DNA of 37,961 nt from Anaerolineae bacterium. GTDB taxonomy: Bacteria; Chloroflexota; Anaerolineae; JAADDB01. Below the pieces are notes generated by a model, which was given only the letters and a program-made list of their open reading frames with translations, searched no databases and was not told where the DNA came from. Every line of letters starts with the position of its first letter. The stretch's first letter is position 1. Below, one piece after another: positions 16,294-37,666 of the stretch. The stretch is taken from the NCBI GenBank assembly GCA_015490995.1, contig WFWT01000068.1, forward strand, positions 1 through 37,961, in the 5' to 3' direction. Position numbers and translations under genes: made by a program.

Positions 16294-16325
16294 TTGACCA
16301 GAACCCGCCCAAAGTGTGCTATCAT
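16294..16325 (+). promoter_or_regulatory. Candidate promoter of the RACo-like gene
   Basis: TGC-TATCAT (extended -10 at 16320-16325) with TTGACC (16294-16299) upstream. The 20-bp spacer is longer than ideal. Confidence 0.4.
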
Positions 16326-16421
16326 CCCCCAAAAGGGTACGAACGTGCTCACCGGAAGGCTTTCCCCGCGTGCCTCGCTGCTGGTATCCGTCACCTTCGA
16401 CATTGGACGAAAGGGACGATC

Positions 16422-18527
16422 ATGGGCGGTGAATCTGGAAAAATGTACCGGGTTGTGTTTCAGCCGGATGGTCGCCAGGGCATGGCCCGAGAAGGCCAAA
16501 CGGTGCTGGAAGTCGCCCGGGAACTGGGCGTGTACATCGAGTCCATTTGTGGCGGCCGCCAAACGTGTGGCAAATGCCGCATCCGGGTGGCCAACGGCCG
16601 CTTCGACACGTACGGTCTCCTTTCCACAACGGAGCACCTCTCTCCACCCGACGCGGGGGAACAAGCGTGCGCGGAGCGATGTGGCCTGGCCCCCGATGAG
16701 CGCCTGGGGTGCTCGGCACGCATCCTGGGCGACGTCGTCATCGAGATACCCGAGGTCAGCCGGGAAAAACGCCAGGTCATTCGCAAAGATGTGGGTTCCC
16801 GTACGCTGCGGGTGAATCCGGCCGTTCGACTGTACTACGTGGAGGTTCCTGAACCTGCACTGGAAGAAAGCCGTGGGGAATGGGAACGGGTGCAGGAGGA
16901 ACTAGCGACCCATTTTGGCCTGGAAGGGGTACAACCGGACGTGACCGTGTTGCAAGAAGTGCAACGGAGCCTGCGCGAGGGAAAGCGCGGTATCACCCTG
17001 AGCGTCCGACAAGGGCGGGAGGCAATCCGGGTACAGCCGGGGTACCACGAAGACATTTACGGTATGGCCATCGACGTGGGCACGACTACCATGGCCGGTC
17101 ACCTGGCTCACCTGCGCACGGGCGACGTACTGGCCACCGTGTCCATGATGAACCCACAAGTCACGTACGGTGAGGACATCATGTCCCGGATTGCCTATGC
17201 CATGCGCCACCCAGAGGGCCGAGAACGGCTACACCAAGCTATCCTGAACGGGCTCAACGACCTGATCCGACAGGCCACAAGCGACGCGGGCATCACCCCC
17301 CAGGACATCGTGGAAGTCGTGCTAGTGGGCAACACGGTGATGCACCACCTCTTTTTGGGACTAGATCCCACCACCCTGGGCACCGCGCCCTTCACCCTTG
17401 CCATTCAGGACGCCGTCGATATCAAGGCGCGCGATTTCGGGCTGGACATTGCCCCCGGTGGTAACGTGCACGTCCTGCCCTGCGAGGCCGGTCACGTGGG
17501 CGCGGACAACGTGGCCGTCCTTCTTGCCGAAGCACCCCACCGGGTGGAAGGGGAAATACACCTGGTGATCGACGTGGGCACAAATGGTGAAATCTTGCTC
17601 GGCAACCGGGAGAGCATGTGGGTCGCCTCTAGCCCGACGGGACCCGCCTTTGAGGGTGCCCAGATCCGACACGGAATGCGGGCTGCAGCGGGCGCTATCG
17701 AGCGGGTACGCCTGGATCCAGAGACACTGGAAGTGCGCTTTAAGGTCATCGGCGAGGCGCGATGGAACACCGAGTGGCCTGACAACGCGCTCGACGCGTT
17801 CGACATAACCGCGCGTCGCGCAGGGCAGAAGCAGCGACCGACGGTAGTGAAGGCTCGCGGTATTTGTGGGTCAGGTATCATAGAAGCAGTGGCCGAACTA
17901 TGGCGAGTGGGCGCGCTGGACGACAGTGGTCGCTTCGTGCCGGGCCTCGCGGACGAAACGCCGCGCTTTGTGCCGGAAGGGGAGAAAGGAGCCTTTATCC
18001 TCGCCTGGCCTCATGAAACGGCCACCGGACAATCTATCGTCGTGCACTCGGACGACATCCGGGCAGTGCAACTGGCCAAGGCCGCCCTCTACACCGGGAC
18101 CAAACTGCTCATGAAACGCGCCGGCATCGAACACGTGGACCGCATCAAGTTAGCCGGGGGGTTCGGCAGTTACATCAGCCCGGCCCACGCCCTGATGCTG
18201 GGCATGATCCCGGACGCGGCCCTCGACCGGGTGGTGGCGGTCGGAAACGCGGCAGGAGACGGCGCGCTTATGGCCCTCTTGGACCAAGATGCACGAGAAG
18301 AAGCCCGGCAACTCGCCCGCTGGGTGACCTATGTGGGCACTGCGCTGGAGGCGGACTTCCAAGAGGAATTCGTCGCCGCGCTGCACATCCCCCACCGCCA
18401 TGATCCTTTTCCCCACCTCGCATCCCTGCTGGCCGACGCGGAACCCTGGCGTTCACAACGGCGCGCCCGCGTGCAACGTGCTTCTGCGCGACGTTCTCGC
18501 CGCCGTCGGCGACGTGGCCATACCTGA
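16422..18527 (+). CDS. RACo-like corrinoid activation protein (2Fe-2S ferredoxin plus DUF4445 ASKHA domain)
   Basis: 701 aa. The N-terminal 2Fe-2S domain has C43-x5-C49-x2-C52 and C97. The C-terminal ASKHA ATPase-like domain (DUF4445) shows YGMAIDVGTTTMAGH (213-227), VLVGNTVMHHLFLG and VIDVGTNGEILLG. Characterised RACo proteins use ATP to drive low-potential reduction of Co(II) to Co(I) in corrinoid proteins, in the Wood-Ljungdahl pathway or methyltransferase systems. The ATG at 16422 has AAAGGGA upstream; ATG 16443 is an alternative. The C-terminus ends in an Arg-rich tail (about 20 residues, over half Arg) not expected for the family. No corrinoid protein or methyltransferase gene is adjacent, so the partner is unknown. 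Confidence 0.9.
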   Translation: MGGESGKMYRVVFQPDGRQGMAREGQTVLEVARELGVYIESICGGRQTCGKCRIRVANGRFDTYGLLSTTEHLSPPDAGEQACAERCGLAPDERLGCSARILGDVVIEIPEVSREKRQVIRKDVGSRTLRVNPAVRLYYVEVPEPALEESRGEWERVQEELATHFGLEGVQPDVTVLQEVQRSLREGKRGITLSVRQGREAIRVQPGYHEDIYGMAIDVGTTTMAGHLAHLRTGDVLATVSMMNPQVTYGEDIMSRIAYAMRHPEGRERLHQAILNGLNDLIRQATSDAGITPQDIVEVVLVGNTVMHHLFLGLDPTTLGTAPFTLAIQDAVDIKARDFGLDIAPGGNVHVLPCEAGHVGADNVAVLLAEAPHRVEGEIHLVIDVGTNGEILLGNRESMWVASSPTGPAFEGAQIRHGMRAAAGAIERVRLDPETLEVRFKVIGEARWNTEWPDNALDAFDITARRAGQKQRPTVVKARGICGSGIIEAVAELWRVGALDDSGRFVPGLADETPRFVPEGEKGAFILAWPHETATGQSIVVHSDDIRAVQLAKAALYTGTKLLMKRAGIEHVDRIKLAGGFGSYISPAHALMLGMIPDAALDRVVAVGNAAGDGALMALLDQDAREEARQLARWVTYVGTALEADFQEEFVAALHIPHRHDPFPHLASLLADAEPWRSQRRARVQRASARRSRRRRRRGHT

Positions 18528-21205: not shown

Positions 21206-21233
21206 TAAGGAAAAGGCAAAAGTGAGGGCGCCT

Positions 21234-21656
21234 ATGTTTTGGCCGTGGTCCGACGCCCGGGCTGTGTTGATTTTTGACGGTTGGTGAGGGTTTTGTACGG
21301 CCAGCGCGCGCCTCCTGCAAGCGCTGGACCGTTACGGCCGCGTGGCGGTCATTCCCTGCCAAAACGTCGCGGTAGTGCGTCGCCTCAGAGTCTCACCGGA
21401 AGCATGCCGGCAAGCTGCCTGGTGTGTCACTTATACCGGGGAAGCCTACTCCGGAGCCGGGGCGGTATATGCGGTGCTCGCCCACGCGCTGGACTGGCCG
21501 TGGCTGTTACGGTGGTATCGGGTTCCATGGGTACACACAGTGTCGGAAACGGTATATCGGTGGGTAGCCCGTCACCGCCACTATCTTCCGGGCATACGAC
21601 CGTTTTGTGTCCAACATCCGGAACAATGCCAGGAAGGAGGGAGTTCGCTCACGTAG
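21234..21656 (+). CDS. DCC-family (DUF393) thiol-disulfide oxidoreductase with in-frame UGA: candidate selenoprotein
   Basis: 140 codons from ATG 21234 (GAGGG about 8 nt upstream) to TAG 21654-21656, interrupted only by TGA at 21285-21287 (codon 18). The translation is VLIFDGW-U-GFCTASARLLQALD and then RVAVIPCQN. DCC proteins have DGxCxxC followed by a helix ending near Asp and an Rhy...P-Q element, so UGA sits at the first Cys of the redox motif, giving U-x-x-C. The rest of the frame stays open and family-like. A stem-loop at 21295-21335 fits a bacterial SECIS. DCC proteins are small predicted thiol-redox enzymes of unknown substrate. The alternative is a Cys-to-stop nonsense mutation (one base from TGT or TGC) or a base-call error, leaving a pseudogene. 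Confidence 0.72.
21288..21335 (+). promoter_or_regulatory. Candidate bacterial SECIS element
   Basis: Beginning 7 nt after the UGA, GTACGGCCAGCGC (21295-21307) pairs with GCGCTGG-A-CCG-T-TAC (21321-21335) through a single-base A bulge and a single-base T bulge. The loop is 13 nt (21308-21320) and starts with G. The apical loop lies 20 nt past the UGA, inside the range reported for bacterial SECIS elements, which need a G in the first loop positions. Confidence 0.6.
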
Positions 21657-21705: not shown

Positions 21706-22068
21706 TCAACGACGGCGTTTGCTCTGAGCACGAGCACACGCCGCGCACAACGTGGTTTCGGGAAACAACTCCAATCGTTCGGGCTCTATGGGATTTCCGC
21801 AGGACTCACAAATGCCATACTGTCCCTGTTCCAGGCGGGCGATGGCCTCCTTCAACAGCGCGATCCGCTCACGGAGTTGATCTCGCCGAGCCAAGTTCAT
21901 CTCCCATTCCACCAACCGGGGGCTACCCACGCCCAGCCCGAATTCCGGTTTATCCTCCAGTTCCTGAAGCACTTCGGCCAGCTCTGCTTCTGCTTCCGCG
22001 AGTTCGCGACGGAGTCGCTCGAGCTCCTTCTCACGCTCCTGCGCGTTGGTTAAGGGCGCGTTGCTCAT
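21706..22068 (-). CDS. DksA/TraR-family C4 zinc-finger protein
   Basis: 120 aa. An N-terminal charged coiled coil (about 8-80) is followed by a C4 zinc finger, C87-x2-C90-x17-C108-x2-C111 (CESCGNPIEPERL, then LCAAC), and a basic tail. DksA/TraR proteins insert the coiled coil into the RNA polymerase secondary channel. Whether this one carries the acidic DxxDxA tip is unclear (ELEDKPEF is the closest stretch), so a general stress/TraR-like role is safer than DksA itself. The ATG at 22068 overlaps the S1 stop (ATGA) and lies next to GGAGGGAG, so it is translationally coupled to S1. Confidence 0.9.
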   Translation of the reverse strand: MSNAPLTNAQEREKELERLRRELAEAEAELAEVLQELEDKPEFGLGVGSPRLVEWEMNLARRDQLRERIALLKEAIARLEQGQYGICESCGNPIEPERLELFPETTLCAACARAQSKRRR

Positions 22069-24088: not shown

Positions 24089-24146
24089 GGTGCTGGCGCG
24101 GCGCGGGCCCGGCCCAAATGAACTCCCTCGCAAAGGAGCGAGTACC

Positions 24147-25841
24147 ATGCCCACCGATCTGGAAATTGCCCAAGCCGCAGAGTTACGCCCCATTGAAGAA
24201 ATTGCCGACCAGATGGGCCTCTGTGCCGAAGACCTGGACCTCTACGGCCGGTACATCGCCAAGATCCACCTGGACGTCCTGGAGAAGCTGGCAAAGCACC
24301 CCCAAGGGAAGTACATCCTCGTCACCGCCATCACCCCGACCCCCCTTGGCGAAGGGAAGACCACTACCACCGTCGGTCTGGGCCAAGCGTTCAAACACCT
24401 GGGCAAGCGGGCCGTTATCGCCATTCGTCAGCCCAGCATGGGACCTACCTTCGGCATCAAGGGTGGAGCAGCTGGCGGCGGATACAGCCAAGTGGTGCCC
24501 ATGGAACCCTTCAACCTGCACCTCACCGGGGACATTCACGCGGTCACCGCCGCGAACAATCTCCTAGCTGCCATGATCGACAACCACTTACACCATGGCA
24601 ACGCCTTGAACGTAGACCCCTTCTCCATCACCTGGCGACGAGTGGTGGACATCAGCGACCGAGCTTTACGCCACATTGTCATCGGGCTGGGGGGCAAATC
24701 TGACGGGATCCCCAGAGAAACAGGCTTTGACATCGCCGTGGCCTCAGAGGTGATGGCGATCTTGGCGTTAACGACCGGCCTGCATGACCTGCGTCAACGC
24801 CTGGGGCGCATTGTATGGGGATACACGCGGGATAAAACCCCTCTTACCGCGGAGGACATCAAGGCCGCCGGTGCGATGACCGTGCTGCTCATGGAAGCCA
24901 TTAAACCGAACCTCCTGCAAACACTGGAACACACGCCCGCACTGGTCCATGCCGGCCCCTTCGCCAACATCGCCCACGGCAACTCCTCTATCCTGGCGGA
25001 CCTGATCGGCATTCGCTGTGGAGACTACCTCATCACCGAGGCCGGTTTCGGCGCGGACATTGGCGCGGAGAAGTTCTTCAACATTAAATGCCGTTACAGT
25101 GGGCTGACACCGAATGCCGCCGTCTTGGTGGTGACGGTGCGTGCCCTTAAGGCTCACACGGGCAGGTACCGCATTGTACCGGGCAAACCGTTGCCGCCGG
25201 AATTGCTGGAGAAGAACGTGGCCGATGTGGAGGCAGGCGCACTCAACATGATCAAACAAATCGAGAACGTGCGCAAGCATGGGGTGCCGGTAGTAGTGGC
25301 CATCAACAAGTTCCCCACCGACCACGTGGAGGAGCTTCAGGCCATCCAGCGCATCGCGGTGGAGGCCGGGGCTCACGGGGCTGCCGTGGCAACCCACTGG
25401 GCAGAAGGAGGCCGAGGTGCGGTGGCCCTAGCCGAGATGGTAGCGGACGCGACGGACCAAGCCAGCGAATTTCGCTTTCTTTATCCCTTAGATTGGCCCA
25501 TCAAGAAGAAAATCGAGACCATCGCCCGGGAAATCTACGGCGCGGCCGAAGTGGTGTATGAGCCTCGGGCCGAACGACAGATCCGCCGATATGAAGCGTC
25601 CGGATTCGGCAATTTGCCCATCTGTATTGCCAAAACACACCTTAGCCTGAGCCATGACCCTCAACTAAAGGGCGCGCCCACCGGCTATTCTTTCCCCATC
25701 ACGGACGTACGAGTTGCCGCCGGGGCCGGGTTTGTATATCCTTTGGCCGGTGACATCCGTACTATGCCGGGCTTACCCAAACACCCGGCCGCCGAACGGG
25801 TGGACATCGATGAACAGGGCCGTGTAGTGGGTCTGTTCTAA
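24147..25841 (+). CDS. fhs: Formate-tetrahydrofolate ligase
   Basis: ATP-dependent formation of 10-formyl-THF from formate and THF, cytosolic, feeding purine and C1 metabolism or the methyl branch of the Wood-Ljungdahl pathway. 564 aa, full length. The P-loop TPLGEGKT is at 65-72, GIKGGAAGGGYSQVVPMEP and FANIAHGNSS are the family signatures, and the C-terminus is complete. The ATG at 24147 has AAAGGAG 8 nt upstream. It is transcribed alone from an extended -10 promoter. A RACo-like gene is 6 kb away, but no other acetyl-CoA pathway genes are in the window. Confidence 0.97.
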   Translation: MPTDLEIAQAAELRPIEEIADQMGLCAEDLDLYGRYIAKIHLDVLEKLAKHPQGKYILVTAITPTPLGEGKTTTTVGLGQAFKHLGKRAVIAIRQPSMGPTFGIKGGAAGGGYSQVVPMEPFNLHLTGDIHAVTAANNLLAAMIDNHLHHGNALNVDPFSITWRRVVDISDRALRHIVIGLGGKSDGIPRETGFDIAVASEVMAILALTTGLHDLRQRLGRIVWGYTRDKTPLTAEDIKAAGAMTVLLMEAIKPNLLQTLEHTPALVHAGPFANIAHGNSSILADLIGIRCGDYLITEAGFGADIGAEKFFNIKCRYSGLTPNAAVLVVTVRALKAHTGRYRIVPGKPLPPELLEKNVADVEAGALNMIKQIENVRKHGVPVVVAINKFPTDHVEELQAIQRIAVEAGAHGAAVATHWAEGGRGAVALAEMVADATDQASEFRFLYPLDWPIKKKIETIAREIYGAAEVVYEPRAERQIRRYEASGFGNLPICIAKTHLSLSHDPQLKGAPTGYSFPITDVRVAAGAGFVYPLAGDIRTMPGLPKHPAAERVDIDEQGRVVGLF

Positions 25842-30367: not shown

Positions 30368-31117
30368 TTAAGGTTGTCGGGTGGAATCGTAACCCAGCGT
30401 GCGGATGTACATGATCACTGCCCAGCGCTCATCCTCGCTTAACTGATTGCCCCAGGCGGGCATGGCTCCCCGGCCGTTGGTCACCACCTCAAACTGCTGA
30501 GCCATGGTGGTAGTGGCCAAGTACGCCGGGTCGGTGAAATCGGGCGTGCCCTGAACCACGCCCTTGCCATCCGCGCCGTGACACGCCGCACAGCTCTGGG
30601 CGAAGATCTGCTGGCCGGTAGCCAGAGTCTCCTCGTCCACCGCAAAGTCAAACGCGTAGAAGAGCACGTTCCACCGCTGTTGTTCGTCCAAGGTGCCCTT
30701 CCAGGCCGGCATCGCCCCACGACCGTCGGTGATGACCTGGAAGGACTCGGCCGGCGTGCGTTCTCGCCAGAAGGCAGGATCCGCGAAATTCGGCGTGCCC
30801 TGAACCACGCCCTTGCCATCCGCGCCGTGACACGCCGCACAGTTCTGGGCGAAGATCTGCTGACCCTCGGCAGCGACGGGCCGTGCGGGGGGCACCGGTA
30901 AGGTGGCTTGCTCGCCGCCACCCGGCGCTGTGGCCACCTGCTCTTCACCGGCAGCCGCGGCCAATTCGGGCACTAGAGTGGGCGTTGGCCCCACCTCGCG
31001 GGCGATTGGCGTGGGCGCGGGCAGACGTCTGATGGGGCGTGGATCCCCGCACGCGCTGATAAGCACCATCATCAACAGCAACACCAGCAAGACAACCGCT
31101 CTATACCGCCACGCCAT
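30368..31117 (-). CDS. Diheme cytochrome c lipoprotein, last gene of the ACIII operon
   Basis: 249 aa. The signal peptide ends in a lipobox (LISAC, Cys23), so it is membrane-anchored. A Pro/Ala linker leads to two tandem cytochrome c domains, each with CAACH and a distal GRGAMPAW methionine region. The two domains share GQQIFAQ(N/S)CAACHGADGK and are nearly identical at DNA level over 71 bp. It probably accepts electrons from the complex and passes them to a terminal oxidase. The ATG at 31117 follows GGAGGG. It is separated by 15 bp from the monoheme cytochrome gene. Confidence 0.93.
   Translation of the reverse strand: MAWRYRAVVLLVLLLMMVLISACGDPRPIRRLPAPTPIAREVGPTPTLVPELAAAAGEEQVATAPGGGEQATLPVPPARPVAAEGQQIFAQNCAACHGADGKGVVQGTPNFADPAFWRERTPAESFQVITDGRGAMPAWKGTLDEQQRWNVLFYAFDFAVDEETLATGQQIFAQSCAACHGADGKGVVQGTPDFTDPAYLATTTMAQQFEVVTNGRGAMPAWGNQLSEDERWAVIMYIRTLGYDSTRQP
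30543..30862 (-). repeat. 71-bp direct repeat, two copies, 249 bp apart
   Basis: Copies at 30543-30613 and 30792-30862 differ at one position (30594 c, 30843 t). They encode the heme-binding part of each cytochrome domain. Flanking sequence is much more diverged, suggesting gene conversion. Confidence 0.93.
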
Positions 31118-31132
31118 TGCCGTTGCCCTCCT

Positions 31133-31642
31133 TTACTGCTGCGCCAAGGAGCGCAGGTAGTTGACCACATCCCAGCGTTCGTTTTCCGTCAGATTCTCAA
31201 CCATGCGTGGCATCCGGCCAAATCCCTCCGTCATGCGCAAGAACAGGGTCGCGTCATCCCGCTGCCGCAACAACTCAGTTGTCAGGAGAGGGGGTGGTGG
31301 ATCGAAATACGTGCCCACCGGCCCTACCGTGCTGGCCGCAGCGCCCGGTTCGCCATGACACAACGCGCAATTAATGGCGTAATACTCCTTCCCCCGGGCG
31401 ATAGACGCGGGATCGCCGGGATACGGGTTCTGCGGAGGCCGGCCGCCCGGCACATACGCCACCCCGTCGAAAGGAATGGCCTCCTCCACAAAGGGGATCA
31501 CCGGCCCTTCCTGGTTGCGCACGGAGATCTGGTCTTCCATAAACGAGTTGAACTCTATGTTGATCACCTCGTACGTCAACAACAACACCGACAGCAGGGG
31601 CACAGCTAGAACCACCAGCGTAATAATTATGCGCTTGGTCAT
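31133..31642 (-). CDS. actE: Monoheme cytochrome c subunit of alternative complex III (ActE-like)
   Basis: 169 aa. One N-terminal membrane helix (about 5-26), then a cytochrome c domain with CALCH and a distal FGRMPRM methionine candidate. It transfers electrons outward from the complex. The ATG at 31642 overlaps the preceding stop (ATGA) and has GGAGG just upstream; an in-frame GTG at 31654 is less likely. The subunit name follows position and domain content, so it is approximate. Confidence 0.9.
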   Translation of the reverse strand: MTKRIIITLVVLAVPLLSVLLLTYEVINIEFNSFMEDQISVRNQEGPVIPFVEEAIPFDGVAYVPGGRPPQNPYPGDPASIARGKEYYAINCALCHGEPGAAASTVGPVGTYFDPPPPLLTTELLRQRDDATLFLRMTEGFGRMPRMVENLTENERWDVVNYLRSLAQQ

Positions 31643-32166
31643 AGCGGCCTCCACTCCCCATCCTTAATGTCTGCGCCCCATTGGCGAAGAATGTCCTCCA
31701 CCTGAGCGCGCTGGTCCTCCGAGACGGAGACGACAATGCCGATCCGGCCATCGGAGATGCTGGGATCATACAGCTTTCGCCGGAAGGGCAACAGGCCGGA
31801 CTGCCAGAACGTGCCCGCGAAGAAGGTGCTCAGGATAATCCCGAGCATGGTCAGCTCGTACATGATGATGAGCTTAGGGGGCAGGGTAAAGTAGCCTTGA
31901 CCGCCCACCCGGATACTGTACAAGGCCACCGTGCCAAAGGTAAAAAGGATGGCCGTGATAAACCCGATGATCGCGCCCACCGGGGTGATAATGCTCATCC
32001 GTTCTGGCACCTCAGGACGCCCCAGCACCTCGTGCTCCAAGGGAATCCCCGACATGATCTCGATACGGTCATCGGGGACCCCCGCTTTCCGGAGGGCCTC
32101 TACCGCGCCTGCGGCCTGATCGATCTCGTCCAAAAGGGCAAAGACCGTTGCCTTTCCGGTGGCCAT
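31639..32166 (-). CDS. actD: DUF3341 membrane subunit of alternative complex III (ActD-like)
   Basis: 175 aa with an N-terminal ferredoxin-like alpha/beta fold (TVFALLDEIDQAAGAVEALRKAGV) typical of DUF3341, two membrane helices (about 58-82 and 100-122), and a C-terminal soluble stretch. ActD has no cofactor and helps hold the complex at the cytoplasmic face. The ATG at 32166 follows GAGG. It lies 35 bp after the NrfD-like gene and overlaps the cytochrome gene by 4 nt. Confidence 0.92.
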   Translation of the reverse strand: MATGKATVFALLDEIDQAAGAVEALRKAGVPDDRIEIMSGIPLEHEVLGRPEVPERMSIITPVGAIIGFITAILFTFGTVALYSIRVGGQGYFTLPPKLIIMYELTMLGIILSTFFAGTFWQSGLLPFRRKLYDPSISDGRIGIVVSVSEDQRAQVEDILRQWGADIKDGEWRPL

Positions 32167-32201
32167 AGGATATGCCTCCTCGTTTTCTGCACTTCCCTCG
32201 C

Positions 32202-33653
32202 TTAATCCACGTTCGTCCTGGCCGTCACCACAGCGCGACCAAACCGCACTATGCGATGCGTCAGTTGCCCTTCATGCACCTCCCATACAGGCACGTACGG
32301 GAGAATGCGGGTGAAGAGCATGTATAGGAAGAAGAACATGGCAAAGGAACCCACCACGATGCTCATCTCCACGATGGAGGGGTTGTACTCACCCCAGTCG
32401 AAGGGCATCCGATTCCGCTGGAGGAAACCGGTCACGATGATGACGCGCTCCAAGTACATGCCGATGTTCACACCCAGCGTGATCAGGAACAAAGCTGTGG
32501 GAGAACGCCGGATCCGTTTGTTCCACAGCGTAGCCCACGGCACCAGGATGTTGAAGAAGAGCATCCCATACCACAAGGGAGCAGCAGGCCCACGGGCTTG
32601 TAAGGTGAGGATCTCATGCCCCACACGCTCACCACCGTACCATTCCACCAAGAAATCGTTGAAGAAGAAGTACGTCCACGCGAAGGAGAAGATCAACACC
32701 AGCAATGCCAAGGATTCCAAATGTTCGGTGCGAATGAAATAGTGAAGCTTCAAAGAACGGCGGGCAATGATTAACATGGTGATCACCGCGGACACGCCGG
32801 AGAAGATCGCCCCGACCACAAAGTAAGGTCCGAAGATACTGCTCCGCCACCCGACCTTCATGGTCATGGCGAAGTCCCATGACACAATGGTGTGCACCGA
32901 GAACATGACCGGGATGATGACGAAGGCAAAGATCTTCATAGCGGTCATTAAATGACGCCATTCCTCCTCTGTACCCCGCCAGCCCAAGGCCAACACCCGA
33001 TACAGCTTCTGTCGCCACCCGGTCATGTGGTCACGTCCCATGGCAAAGTCGGGTATCAGGGGCAAGTACAGGTACAGGGTACTGCCGGTCAGGTAGGTGA
33101 AGATGGCCGTCATGTCCCACATGAGCGGCGAGTGGAAGTTCGGCCACAGCTCTCGCTGGTTGGGGATAGGCAGCATCCAGTAGAACCGCCAGGTCCGCCC
33201 CAGATGAATAAGGGGAAAGAGACCGGCCACCATGAGGGAGAAGGTGGTCATCATCTCTGCGCCGCGCGTGATAGGACGGCTATACTCCGCCTTGAACACC
33301 CGCAGGATGGCGGAGACAAAGGTGCCCGAGTGGCTGATACCGATCCAGAAGACGAAGTTCGCGATGTACATTCCCCAGAAGACGGGCCGACGGATGCCGG
33401 CAACCCCCATGCCCCAGCGCATCTGGTATCCCCAAGCGAAGAAAAGGCCTACCAGGGTGATAAGCCCCAGCACCACGAGCAGCGCGATGTACCCCGGGGT
33501 GATGCGCTGCACCGCTTCCAGGACCATGCGATTCATCTCGCTGCGGGGGCGCGGGTCCACAAGGAGCACCTCTTCCCGCAGCTTCTGCTCCTCGTGTGCC
33601 AGCGCCGCCTCCTGACCCTCCTGCCAGTCCCGGCGAGTGCTCTCAGACGCCAT
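32202..33653 (-). CDS. actC: NrfD-like quinol-binding membrane subunit of alternative complex III (ActC-like)
   Basis: 483 aa with about ten transmembrane helices, the NrfD/PsrC fold. It is the probable menaquinol oxidation site. Conserved-looking features are WGMYIANFVFWIGISHSGTF early on, WDMTAIFTYL and a late GMYLERVIIV. The ATG at 33653 overlaps the iron-sulfur gene's end by 11 nt and follows GGAGGGG. Only one NrfD-like gene is present; most described complexes have two (ActC and ActF). Confidence 0.94.
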   Translation of the reverse strand: MASESTRRDWQEGQEAALAHEEQKLREEVLLVDPRPRSEMNRMVLEAVQRITPGYIALLVVLGLITLVGLFFAWGYQMRWGMGVAGIRRPVFWGMYIANFVFWIGISHSGTFVSAILRVFKAEYSRPITRGAEMMTTFSLMVAGLFPLIHLGRTWRFYWMLPIPNQRELWPNFHSPLMWDMTAIFTYLTGSTLYLYLPLIPDFAMGRDHMTGWRQKLYRVLALGWRGTEEEWRHLMTAMKIFAFVIIPVMFSVHTIVSWDFAMTMKVGWRSSIFGPYFVVGAIFSGVSAVITMLIIARRSLKLHYFIRTEHLESLALLVLIFSFAWTYFFFNDFLVEWYGGERVGHEILTLQARGPAAPLWYGMLFFNILVPWATLWNKRIRRSPTALFLITLGVNIGMYLERVIIVTGFLQRNRMPFDWGEYNPSIVEMSIVVGSFAMFFFLYMLFTRILPYVPVWEVHEGQLTHRIVRFGRAVVTARTNVD

Positions 33654-34368
33654 AGATATCCCCTCCCTTGAGGTAGATCACAGCGGGTTCGGTGCCCAGA
33701 TCCTCCAACAGCTTGAAGCCCCGCCGACTGCGCGCCACCTCGGCGACTTTGCTGTTCGGGTCCAGCAGGTCGCCGAAAATAATCGCGTCCGTGGGACACG
33801 CCTGGGCACACGCGGGCTGCACCTCCCCATCCGCGATGGGGCGTTCTTCCATCTTCGCCTTTTCTTCCACCTGACGGATGCGCTGGATGCAGAAGGTGCA
33901 CTTTTCCATAATGCCCCGCGAGCGCACCGTCACGTCTGGGTTCAGCTGTTCGTGAAGCGGCTCGGGAAAGTCAGGCGCAAACCAGTTAAACACGCGCGCG
34001 ATGTAGGGGCAGTTGTTCGCGCAGAAGCGGGTACCAATACACCGGTTGTACACTTGTATGTTCAGGTGTTCGACTTCACTGTGATACGTGGCAAACACCG
34101 GGCACACCGGTTCACATGGGGCTTTCCCACACTGCTGGCACAGAACCGGGATAAACCGAGCGCGCACGTCGGGGTATTCACCCTCCCAATACCGCTCAAT
34201 GCGGATCCAGCCCATGTGCCGGCCCATGCTGACCTCTTCTTCGCCCACCACAGGCACGTTGTTTTCCGCGTAACAGGCCGTCACACAGGCTGCACAGCCG
34301 GTACACTTGTCCAAGTCTATGACCATCGTCCACTGGTGTTGCTCGCCCTCGCCCTTTGGCTTGGTCAT
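33643..34368 (-). CDS. Iron-sulfur subunit of alternative complex III (ActB2-like)
   Basis: 241 aa ferredoxin-like protein with cysteine groups for about four [4Fe-4S]/[3Fe-4S] clusters: CTGCAACVTAC, CQQCGKAPCEPVC, CIGTRFCANNC, CTFCIQR and CAQAC. It matches the C-terminal half of fused ActB and the PsrB/NrfC electron-transfer subunits. I chose the ATG at 34368 (GGAGGT about 9 nt upstream) over an upstream GTG that sits too close to the site. It overlaps the NrfD gene. Confidence 0.92.
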   Translation of the reverse strand: MTKPKGEGEQHQWTMVIDLDKCTGCAACVTACYAENNVPVVGEEEVSMGRHMGWIRIERYWEGEYPDVRARFIPVLCQQCGKAPCEPVCPVFATYHSEVEHLNIQVYNRCIGTRFCANNCPYIARVFNWFAPDFPEPLHEQLNPDVTVRSRGIMEKCTFCIQRIRQVEEKAKMEERPIADGEVQPACAQACPTDAIIFGDLLDPNSKVAEVARSRRGFKLLEDLGTEPAVIYLKGGDIYGV

Positions 34369-34428
34369 CAGCACCTACCTCCTGTCCCTGAGATCACCTT
34401 TCTGCCCGATGGGCAGCCGTTCCCAGAC

Positions 34429-36654
34429 TTACCCCGGGAACCCGATCTCTCGTGCTCGGTCAACGCCCACTGTGCTCTCCAGCCGCGGGAGCTTCTGCTT
34501 CCGGCCGGTGGGCACTATCTTCACCCGCACGCTCAACCATGCCAGATCATCAGCCGTGGGCACGGTTTTGCTCCCCACCAGGCGCAACGGGTTCGCGCCA
34601 CGCTGCGCGGCGTACCGCCCATAATCGGTGTGTCCTTGCCCCAAGGGCATGGCCACCACGTGCGGATGGATCGCCGGATACTCGTACACAATGGCCTCAA
34701 CCTCCCCATAGGGGGAGATCACCTTTACCACCTCGTCGTGTTTAACCCCCAGTTCCTTTGCCGTCTCGGGGTTGATCTCTATCCACGTGCGCCACATGCC
34801 TGTGGTCATCGGGTCGGCCAGCTCCTGTAGCCAGGGTGCATTGGCGCCCCGCCCATCGGTCAGAGCGATGGACTCATAGGGATAGAACAGGAGCGGATAC
34901 TCCGTTCCTCCCTCAAATTCGGCCGTTACGCCCGTGGCCTGCGAGGGCTGCCACACCAGCTGGGGGGCTTCCCACGTGGGCTCTGCCGTCCACCAACCGC
35001 CAAACTGCCGCCATGCCACCCACGCGTCCGCCTCGTTGTCCAGCGGGAAGTTCCCTTCCATGCCCAGTTGTTGCAGCACCGCCACGCGAGACTTCATAAA
35101 CTCTATCATGTTCTGCCACGGGAGCACTTCCCGGGCCGCGTCAATGGCCTGGGCCAGGAAAAGGAAGATATCACCCATGTCTCGGGTGTCAAAGTACGGC
35201 TGCACCACCGGCTGCTGACAGGCGATGGTCAAACGATCGGTGCCGTTATCAACGACTTGATAACCCCACGACTCTAAGGGCGTGTGCACAGGAAGCACAT
35301 AATCGGCCAGCACCGCGGTCTCATCCACAAAGTGACTAAAGGTGATAACCGTGTCCACTTGGGCAAGGGCCTCTGGGAAGCCCAGAGTGGCCGGCAAACT
35401 GTATGCGGGATTGCTCCCGTCAATGAGCAGGAGATCCACCTCCCCGGCCTTCATGCGATCTACGAGGGCCTGAACCTCGCTTAGGGAAGCGGGTTCGGTT
35501 TCGGGCTTTAAGCCACCCACCTGTGGGTTAGGCGCAAGCCAGAGCCCTCCCTCCTGGCCCAAGTTGTCCATCAGCACGTTGAGCAGCTGTACAGCCAGCA
35601 CCGCGTTGAAGCCTCCCGTATGAGCGGCCACCACGCCACCCGGGATGGCCAGAGGGCGCTCTGCCTCCCCGAAGAGCTTGGCCAAGTCGACAAGACGCCC
35701 TACCTCTACCTCGACCAGTTCCGCGATTTCATCCACGTTCACACCCGCGTAGAAGGGGCGCACCGCGGGGTTGCGGGCAAGGCCCATGTCCAGGAGCAGA
35801 CGGCCCAGCGCGAGGGCGATTAACCCCTCGGTGCCGGCCAAAATGGGGATCCACCGATCGGCAGGCGCTCCGGTCTGGGAAAGGCGAGCCTCAAAGTGGA
35901 CCACAACTCCACGCGGTCCCCCGCGGTCCTGACGACCACGCATCCGGCCGAAAGCCCGGTTGTAGTGCACAGGGGATAACTCCGTGCTCAGAAAACCGCC
36001 GCCGAAGGAGAACACGACGTCCGCGTTGGCCAAATCGTAAACCGGCAGACGATCTTTGCCAAAGAGGGTTCGGTTCACCGCGCGCAGGACCCGCCGTCCC
36101 TCCCAGGCGTAATGTGTGCTGTACAGCACGGGGGGTGGTGCACCGATGGCCGCCAGGAATTTCTCCACAATCCACAGGAGGCTATCGGGCATTTCCCCGC
36201 CCAAGAAGGCAATGCGTTGCGGATCGGTGGCGGTGATCTTTTCAAAGAGGGCATTCAACGCTTCGTTCCAGTGGAGGCCCGTGAAGTCGCGGGAGCCCCG
36301 TGCCCTTTGCTTGACCGGCCATCGCAGTCGGTCCGGGTTATACAGCACCTGCAAGCTTGCCTGGCCCCGAGCACACACCTTGCCTTCATTCACCGGGTGC
36401 AAAGGATTGCCCTCAATTTTCTTGGCCCGTCCCTGGTGCACCCGGACCAGCAGGCCACAGGCAGCCGGGCACTGGCGACACGTCGTCGCGTACCAGACAC
36501 TCTCGCCGGGCAAAGCATGCTCCGGTGCCCGCACGTACGGCTCCAGGTATTCTGAGCCCTTCAGGTTGATCGTGCACCCGCTGGCGACAACTGCCGCCCC
36601 CAGCGCGGCGGTTCCCTGGAGGAATTGCCGTCGGGTAATCCCCTTGTTACTCAT
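34429..36654 (-). CDS. Molybdopterin oxidoreductase-like subunit of alternative complex III (ActB1-like)
   Basis: 741 aa. Twin-arginine leader with R8-R9 (TRRQFLQG) followed by ASGC (lipobox Cys27), so it is exported folded and perhaps lipidated. An iron-sulfur motif C59-x2-C62-x3-C66-x27-C94 is complete, with DMSO-reductase-family domains following. In described complexes the equivalent half lacks molybdenum cofactor; the clusters are attributed mainly to the B2 half. The start is ATG 36654 after GGGGAGG, 10 bp from the pentaheme cytochrome stop. The encoded protein is separate from B2, not fused. Confidence 0.9.
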   Translation of the reverse strand: MSNKGITRRQFLQGTAALGAAVVASGCTINLKGSEYLEPYVRAPEHALPGESVWYATTCRQCPAACGLLVRVHQGRAKKIEGNPLHPVNEGKVCARGQASLQVLYNPDRLRWPVKQRARGSRDFTGLHWNEALNALFEKITATDPQRIAFLGGEMPDSLLWIVEKFLAAIGAPPPVLYSTHYAWEGRRVLRAVNRTLFGKDRLPVYDLANADVVFSFGGGFLSTELSPVHYNRAFGRMRGRQDRGGPRGVVVHFEARLSQTGAPADRWIPILAGTEGLIALALGRLLLDMGLARNPAVRPFYAGVNVDEIAELVEVEVGRLVDLAKLFGEAERPLAIPGGVVAAHTGGFNAVLAVQLLNVLMDNLGQEGGLWLAPNPQVGGLKPETEPASLSEVQALVDRMKAGEVDLLLIDGSNPAYSLPATLGFPEALAQVDTVITFSHFVDETAVLADYVLPVHTPLESWGYQVVDNGTDRLTIACQQPVVQPYFDTRDMGDIFLFLAQAIDAAREVLPWQNMIEFMKSRVAVLQQLGMEGNFPLDNEADAWVAWRQFGGWWTAEPTWEAPQLVWQPSQATGVTAEFEGGTEYPLLFYPYESIALTDGRGANAPWLQELADPMTTGMWRTWIEINPETAKELGVKHDEVVKVISPYGEVEAIVYEYPAIHPHVVAMPLGQGHTDYGRYAAQRGANPLRLVGSKTVPTADDLAWLSVRVKIVPTGRKQKLPRLESTVGVDRAREIGFPG

Positions 36655-36664
36655 CACCCCTCCC

Positions 36665-37273
36665 CTACTTGTGGCAGGTTGCGCAATCTACCAGCTTCGC
36701 CACCTTCTCCGGCGCTTGCTGGCGATGACAATCCAGGCAGAACCCCATGGTCATGTTGAAGTTGCGCGGGGGCATGTCCGTACTCCCCACTTGGCCGTGA
36801 CACTCCACACAAGAAACCCCCGCTTTGATGTGGGGTTGGTGACTGAAGTAGACAAAGTCAGGTAGATCTGTTTTCTTCTCCCACTGCAAGGGTACCCCGC
36901 GTTCCCACGCGTCCCGGATTTTGGCAATCTCCGCGCGCGCCTGGGGAGTCTGCCCCTCGATCACCGCGTGACAGGCGATACACTTTTCCACACTGGGAAT
37001 GGAAGCCACCTGCCCGCGAGGGGCGTTGGAATGGCAGTAGAGACAAGCAATGCCCACTTGTTCCACGTGCACCTTGTGGGAAAACCGGACAGGTTGGGCA
37101 GGTGGTTGTGGCGCAATAGGTTCCACCGTCGTCGACTGAGCCGTGGAGGAAGGACTTTCGACAACCAGCAGCACCACCACAGCAGCTACAACGAGGGCTA
37201 CACCGAGGAACGTCGGGATCATCCAGCGTCGCCGTCCGCCCAAAGCCAGCAAGCGCTTCCACGCATGTACCAT
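36665..37273 (-). CDS. actA: Pentaheme cytochrome c subunit of alternative complex III (ActA-like)
   Basis: 202 aa. An N-terminal membrane anchor (WMIPTFLGVALVVAAVVVLLV at about 20-42) is followed by five CxxCH motifs (CLYCH, CIACH, CVECH, CLDCH, CATCH). This is the first gene of the operon. The ATG at 37273 has GGAGG 7 nt upstream; longer upstream frames are not protein-like. Candidate -10 TATAAT lies at 37354-37349. Confidence 0.93.
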   Translation of the reverse strand: MVHAWKRLLALGGRRRWMIPTFLGVALVVAAVVVLLVVESPSSTAQSTTVEPIAPQPPAQPVRFSHKVHVEQVGIACLYCHSNAPRGQVASIPSVEKCIACHAVIEGQTPQARAEIAKIRDAWERGVPLQWEKKTDLPDFVYFSHQPHIKAGVSCVECHGQVGSTDMPPRNFNMTMGFCLDCHRQQAPEKVAKLVDCATCHK

Positions 37274-37666
37274 CGAGGCGCCTCCCTCATCCGGTAGGTT
37301 TGAGCACGCGAAGGAGGCCGTTGCCGGCCCCCCGCCTCGAACGCCCCCATTATATGTGAGGGGAGCGAAGTGGAGCCAAACTCTATGTGATTTTTGGCAC
37401 AACCACATGAAGTCACAACGTGCCGGGTTCGGCAGTAAAACACTTTACCATAAGACCCAACCGTTGTCCTCACCCCTCTGGAGGAACACTATCTCATCAA
37501 GGTGGATGATCTCGTTCCCCTTCTGAAGAAGTATGCTCGTCTTTGGACTCCCCCCATGGCCCTTCCACCGGGCGAGGCGCGGACGGAGGTGGGGCAGGAT
37601 TGCCAGCCGGCACGAATGCGGGTAAGATGAGGGCAGCCACCAAGGACGGGGGTACCGAATCGGCCG
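37274..37666. other. Divergent region between actA and the right-edge membrane protein
   Basis: On the minus strand TATAAT at 37354-37349 (with weak TTGGCT 19 bp upstream) is a promoter candidate for the ACIII operon. TGTGA-N6-GCACA (37386-37401) resembles a Crp/Fnr-type site about 50 bp upstream of the predicted start. On the plus strand the frame from 37454 to TGA 37628-37630 is protein-like (EEHYLIKVDDLVPLLKKY and on), but the only start is GTG 37502 and its GGAGG is 17 nt away. It could be a remnant or a tiny unassigned gene. Confidence 0.4.

Follow-up and report, generated by a model that had tools for sequence, protein, structure and literature searches.

The gene at positions 21234-21656 (plus strand) of the 37,961-nucleotide stretch of DNA analysed here, hereafter the window, carries an in-frame UGA at codon 18 that is very likely read as selenocysteine (Sec) in a DCC1-like enzyme; this conclusion is computational, and there is no bench evidence of Sec insertion or function. 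In the existence of a Sec-containing branch of the DCC family, also a computational result, our confidence is higher than for the window gene itself. Computation establishes a UGA at the motif, the machinery for Sec and, in relatives, constraint on both sides of the UGA and a covarying hairpin.

The window gene and its genome

Translation from ATG 21234 to TAG 21654-21656 gives one frame whose sole internal stop is TGA 21285-21287, in the context VLIFDGW-U-GFCTASARLL, where it replaces the first Cys of D-G-x-C-x-x-C and leaves all the other residues of that motif in place. The features of the locus are the following:

21222..21228, plus strand: Shine-Dalgarno-like GTGAGGG, seen in the sequence 5 nt before the ATG
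21234..21656, plus strand: very likely a DCC1-like (PF04134) selenoprotein gene, 140 aa including Sec18, stop TAG (translation, Pfam 62.6 bits, AlphaFold pLDDT 92.7)
21285..21287, plus strand: in-frame UGA, predicted Sec18, residue 1 of the UxxC motif (aligned with an invariant Cys; TGA in the same place in 32 of 46 Sec-type genes)
21294..21296, plus strand: TGT, Cys21, residue 2 of the UxxC motif; CxxU and UxxU relatives have UGA here (translation, alignment)
21297..21332, plus strand: candidate bacterial SECIS hairpin with a G-initial 13-nt loop (RNAfold; weak alone, near the family hairpin position)

With the TGA read as Cys, the 140-aa product matches PF04134 with a score of 62.6 bits (cut-off 27.8, E=1e-16), and the match spans profile positions 1-112 of 113, that is, through the UGA. 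U18 aligns with the first Cys, invariant in 58 other homologues of DUF393/PF04134, and the protein retains all the invariant residues of the family. The 122 codons 3' of the TGA contain no further stop and no indel; their usage is atypical of the genome, although frame 0 still scores highest. Frame and motif together lie far outside chance expectation. An earlier sequence-only reading had proposed this single-TGA frame with DGW-U-GFC, DCC/DUF393-like on both sides of the TGA, and both claims held.

The gene stands alone, since its neighbours are divergent or on the opposite strand: a MutS2-type gene diverges upstream, and a DksA/TraR-type zinc-finger gene and an S1-domain gene lie downstream, both on the opposite strand. 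Between 21671 and 21689 there is a GC-rich inverted repeat followed by a T run on the minus strand, which likely terminates transcription of the zinc-finger gene on that strand (21706-22068). The window also contains alternative complex III-like genes at 30368-37408 (multihaem cytochrome c7, TAT-signal molybdopterin-type subunit, NrfD membrane subunit, cbb3-type cytochrome c), a RACo-type corrinoid activator at 16314-18527 and a formate-tetrahydrofolate ligase at 24090-25841; the last two suggest, as a possibility, one-carbon metabolism near the DCC gene.

No usable model of the protein came from AlphaFold without an alignment, and AlphaFold2 with 59 sequences gave one with a pLDDT of 92.7 and a pTM of 0.87, in which the chain starts with a strand and a helix and residue 18 lies directly before helix 19-31. 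Foldseek against the PDB returned weak matches only (best E 0.05), mostly GST, glutaredoxin, thioredoxin and QSOX, and a profile search of solved structures yielded no solved relative. The model thus predicts a thioredoxin-like fold, and the position of Sec would fit that of the nucleophilic Cys of a thioredoxin-like motif, an inference for which there are no activity data.

The source genome (3.04 Mb, 99% complete) contains selA (588 bits), selB (310.9 bits, on contig 132, where a single 646-aa frame also takes in its C-terminal part), selD (377 bits) and a tRNA-Sec (77.8 bits, anticodon TCA according to ARAGORN), and is therefore equipped to decode UGA as Sec; all four genes that the earlier reading had named as a check are present. 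The selD gene itself has one in-frame TGA (CAG-U-ASK; L174, G000 C43:14417-15349) with a hairpin following it, and is likely to encode a second selenoprotein of this genome. Of 27 genomes of the class that carry a Sec-type DCC gene (phylum genomes outside the class were not included), 24 have selA and 25 have selB, and those missing either one are 55-87% complete. As selA is present in 320 of the 396 genomes of the class, so that Sec decoding is common there, this co-occurrence is consistent with the proposal and only weakly discriminating.

Sec-type DCC genes and their hairpin

Homologues were sought in 199 relatives with the window protein as query, and in 396 class and 400 phylum genomes with an alignment of 17 rows. 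Counting the window gene, 46 distinct DCC genes have TGA at the motif: 24 UxxU, 14 CxxU and 8 UxxC. The UGA thus occurs in other Chloroflexota at the same or the partner cysteine, and the earlier claim of a Sec-containing DCC protein is supported, with the amendment that most relatives are UxxU or CxxU and not UxxC. All 70 motif stops in these genes are TGA (0 TAA, 0 TAG), the residue replaced is always Cys, and no stop of any kind was found off the motif between 5 codons before it and 87 after it; the few extra TGA or TAG codons that the search tallied lie at the C-terminal end and are ordinary stops. The residues preceding the TGA are family-like and conserved. Since the stops are only TGA and lie only at motif cysteines, decay or sequencing error would not give this pattern. 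For the window gene itself, the genus and family relatives examined lack this gene, and its TGA therefore rests on a single assembly.

One group of loci (L157-L161, L203, L206) forms a separate, deep-branching UxxU clade with the motif W-DGxUxxU, distributed over several families of the phylum; no Cys members of this clade were seen.

In every pair of Sec genes tested, dN/dS after the UGA was roughly 0.2-0.5 (dN versus dS, for example, 0.10 vs 0.52, 0.17 vs 0.72 and 0.21 vs 0.97), and dN was mostly below dS before the UGA too, though few codons are available there. These results show that sites downstream of the UGA in the relatives are under purifying and not relaxed selection; the decay in homologues that would have refuted the earlier reading was not observed. 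A maximum-likelihood tree of 91 rows, built on 127 columns with the motif masked, required 13 changes between CxxC and Sec forms, at least 9 of them forced by well-supported branches, and 18 changes among the four motif states. Cys and Sec have therefore swapped repeatedly, although with only 127 columns not all single branches are secure. The branch leading to the window gene is long (0.85).

RNAfold pairs 21297-21332 of the window gene, with a 7-bp core (21301-21307/21321-21327), a 13-nt loop (21308-21320) and an A bulge in the 3' arm. The loop begins with G, 20 nt past the UGA, its centre lies about 26 nt after the motif codon, and it lacks the GU present in most relatives. The stem with a G-initial 13-nt loop described earlier is thus present; as evidence, however, it is weak on its own. 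SECIS-like hairpins of at least this stability turned up at rates of 3.3% among synonymous recodings, 3.6% among coding windows and 3.4% among all TGAs of the window, so that this hairpin, expected about once in 30 by chance, is modest evidence that proves nothing alone, and the case for a SECIS rests on the family.

In the family, post-UGA folding energy did not discriminate from synonymous shuffles (mean z -0.5 for U forms, -0.15 for C forms), and for this reason tests of a hairpin in a fixed register were needed. Counted from the first motif codon, the loop centre lies 27-29 nt downstream in each of the 14 CxxU genes and in most UxxU genes, and counted from the second, 18-20 nt downstream; the best hairpins of CxxC genes are scattered in position. 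GU stands at one fixed loop position in 21 of the 24 xxU genes tested. Pairing in the fixed structure scored 117 in xxU genes against a maximum of 106 over 2000 synonymous recodings, with no such excess in CxxC genes, and each of four structural hairpin groups scored above all of 3000 synonymous recodings. Compensatory changes were seen at pair 13-27 (CG/GC/AT) and at pair 15-25 (TA/GC/CG/AT). The recoding counts are not strict probabilities, because groups and registers were picked from the same sequences; nevertheless, a covarying hairpin of SECIS type is supported at the level of the family. Rfam scans of the window UGA region and of 11 Sec-type loci gave no match to a SECIS family. The possibility that the hairpin moves with the position of the UGA was ruled out, as the UxxC genes of one clade keep it where UxxU genes have it.

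Proposed mechanism and alternative explanations

We propose that the window gene product is a small thiol-disulfide oxidoreductase of the thioredoxin superfamily, DCC1-like, in which UGA18 would be translated as selenocysteine. SelA would make Sec-tRNA(Sec), SelB would carry it, and the hairpin just 3' of the UGA would serve as a bacterial SECIS. Sec would occupy the nucleophilic first position of U-x-x-C, at the start of the first helix, and catalysis would proceed by a selenenylsulfide between Sec and Cys21, and in the UxxU relatives by a diselenide. The window protein would in this way belong to a Chloroflexota-wide Sec-type DCC family with UxxC, CxxU and UxxU forms. Sec insertion, its mechanism as in other bacteria and the redox chemistry are all inferred. 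A bolder reading joins three statements: that the redox pair shifts repeatedly among CxxC, UxxC, CxxU and UxxU, that one SECIS drives the insertion of two Sec residues 9 nt apart, and that the product works as an oxidoreductase by way of a diselenide or selenenylsulfide and is connected with the synthesis or use of menaquinone. Taken jointly, we lean slightly against it.

The rival that deserves most weight accepts selenoproteins in the family and holds that the window copy alone is decaying, or has a sequencing error at the TGA. In its favour are the long branch, the atypical codon usage, a hairpin that chance would give in about 3% of cases and the absence of the gene from close relatives. 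Against it, the codons after the TGA are intact, the Pfam match is full-length, the invariant residues are kept, and the lone stop is a TGA exactly on the motif Cys, as in 45 other genes; we regard this rival as unlikely. Less likely still is that the UGA is a true stop and that the downstream part is re-initiated, yielding a short peptide and a truncated protein. An in-frame GTG at 21342 does open 104 codons, but the truncated product would lack the first strand and the redox motif, the stops of the family are all TGA and all at motif cysteines, and what precedes the TGA is family-like and conserved. A general reassignment of UGA to Trp or Gly in this organism is all but excluded: no evidence supporting it was found, TGA is an ordinary stop that ends 11 of the 20 window genes, large genes are open under table 11, and the residue replaced in the family is always Cys.

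Menaquinone neighbours, novelty and known systems

Menaquinone genes lie within about 3 kb of a Sec-DCC gene in 13 genomes, namely 11 of 11 in family f35, one in f37 and one in f33 (the loci include L169, L173, L167, L145 and L147-L156). The neighbours from the classical pathway are MenA, MenC, MenE, MenH or MenF, with the order MenA-MenC-DCC-MenE in G072; for the futalosine pathway, the order is MqnE-DCC-MqnA-like-MqnC in G166 (L169), and in G165 an MqnP-like prenyltransferase lies beside the Sec-DCC gene. In profile scans MenA, MenH, MqnE and MqnC exceeded curated cut-offs and TIGR00543, the isochorismate synthase model, was passed as well, while MenC, MenE and MqnP were best matches but below the cut-off; MqnA was assigned by eye only, without an NCBIfam match at 1e-30. 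None of 80 named-genome loci, searched up to 6 kb per side, gave a comparable menaquinone match (four were weak, 58-76 bits).

Because two unrelated pathways to one quinone adjoin the DCC gene, we infer that a link to the quinone is likelier than one to a single enzyme. A list of plastoglobule core proteins includes a plant DCC protein (PMC12587418); by analogy this would fit a quinone link and does not prove it. No neighbourhood conserved over the whole Sec-DCC family was found; the menaquinone link is partial and excludes the window copy, which lacks such neighbours and whose role is therefore inferred only from the family. Menaquinone-linked redox is the best functional lead for at least part of the family, inferred from gene neighbourhood, the enzymatic role being unproven.

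The Sec-containing DCC branch is apparently, and in our judgement likely, undescribed; the sequence-only reading knew of no description of one, and all literature and database sources searched agree. PF04134, COG3011 and DCC are absent from the text and table of a 2026 review of prokaryotic selenoproteomes (PMC13188914), DCC is not mentioned in the text of a 2022 review (PMC9312934), of deep-Sep (PMC12013277) or of an ocean survey (PMC2398784), and no NCBIfam model matches Sec-type DCC. The open literature on DUF393, DCC1, COG3011 and PF04134 contained nothing relevant to selenium; most subscription journals and preprints were outside this search, and a description that we have not seen cannot be excluded. 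If the proposal is true, earlier surveys overlooked a selenoprotein family, one which offers a natural series of a single redox motif with Sec at position one, at position two or at both, so that the reason why evolution exchanges sulfur for selenium could be examined in one protein. With the UxxU genes comes the question of whether a single SECIS suffices for two insertions so close together, and the menaquinone neighbourhood would provide a first testable role for the broad DCC family, for which we found no established function.

With the DCC1-like proteins of PF04134/DUF393, such as B. subtilis YuxK, the window protein shares the domain, the length, D-G-x-C-x-x-C and the C-terminal Y and R residues; it differs from them in having UGA at the first motif Cys, and its relatives in having UGA at either or both positions and a hairpin lying within the coding region. 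Sec-containing thioredoxin, glutaredoxin and Prx-like oxidoreductases (UxxC, UxxU) likewise belong to the thioredoxin superfamily and have Sec in a CxxC-type motif, but their Pfam family is different; UxxC and UxxU are given for Prx-like PF00578 in the 2026 review (PMC13188914). SelD has long been recognised as a selenoprotein, and that of the same genome shares with the window gene an in-frame TGA and a hairpin after it, whereas its fold and function are unrelated. The SECIS of E. coli formate dehydrogenase is a short hairpin that follows the UGA directly and carries GU in its apical loop. The xxU relatives are similar, with the loop GU about 18-20 nt downstream of the UGA; the difference is that in UxxU genes one hairpin would have to serve two UGAs 9 nt apart.
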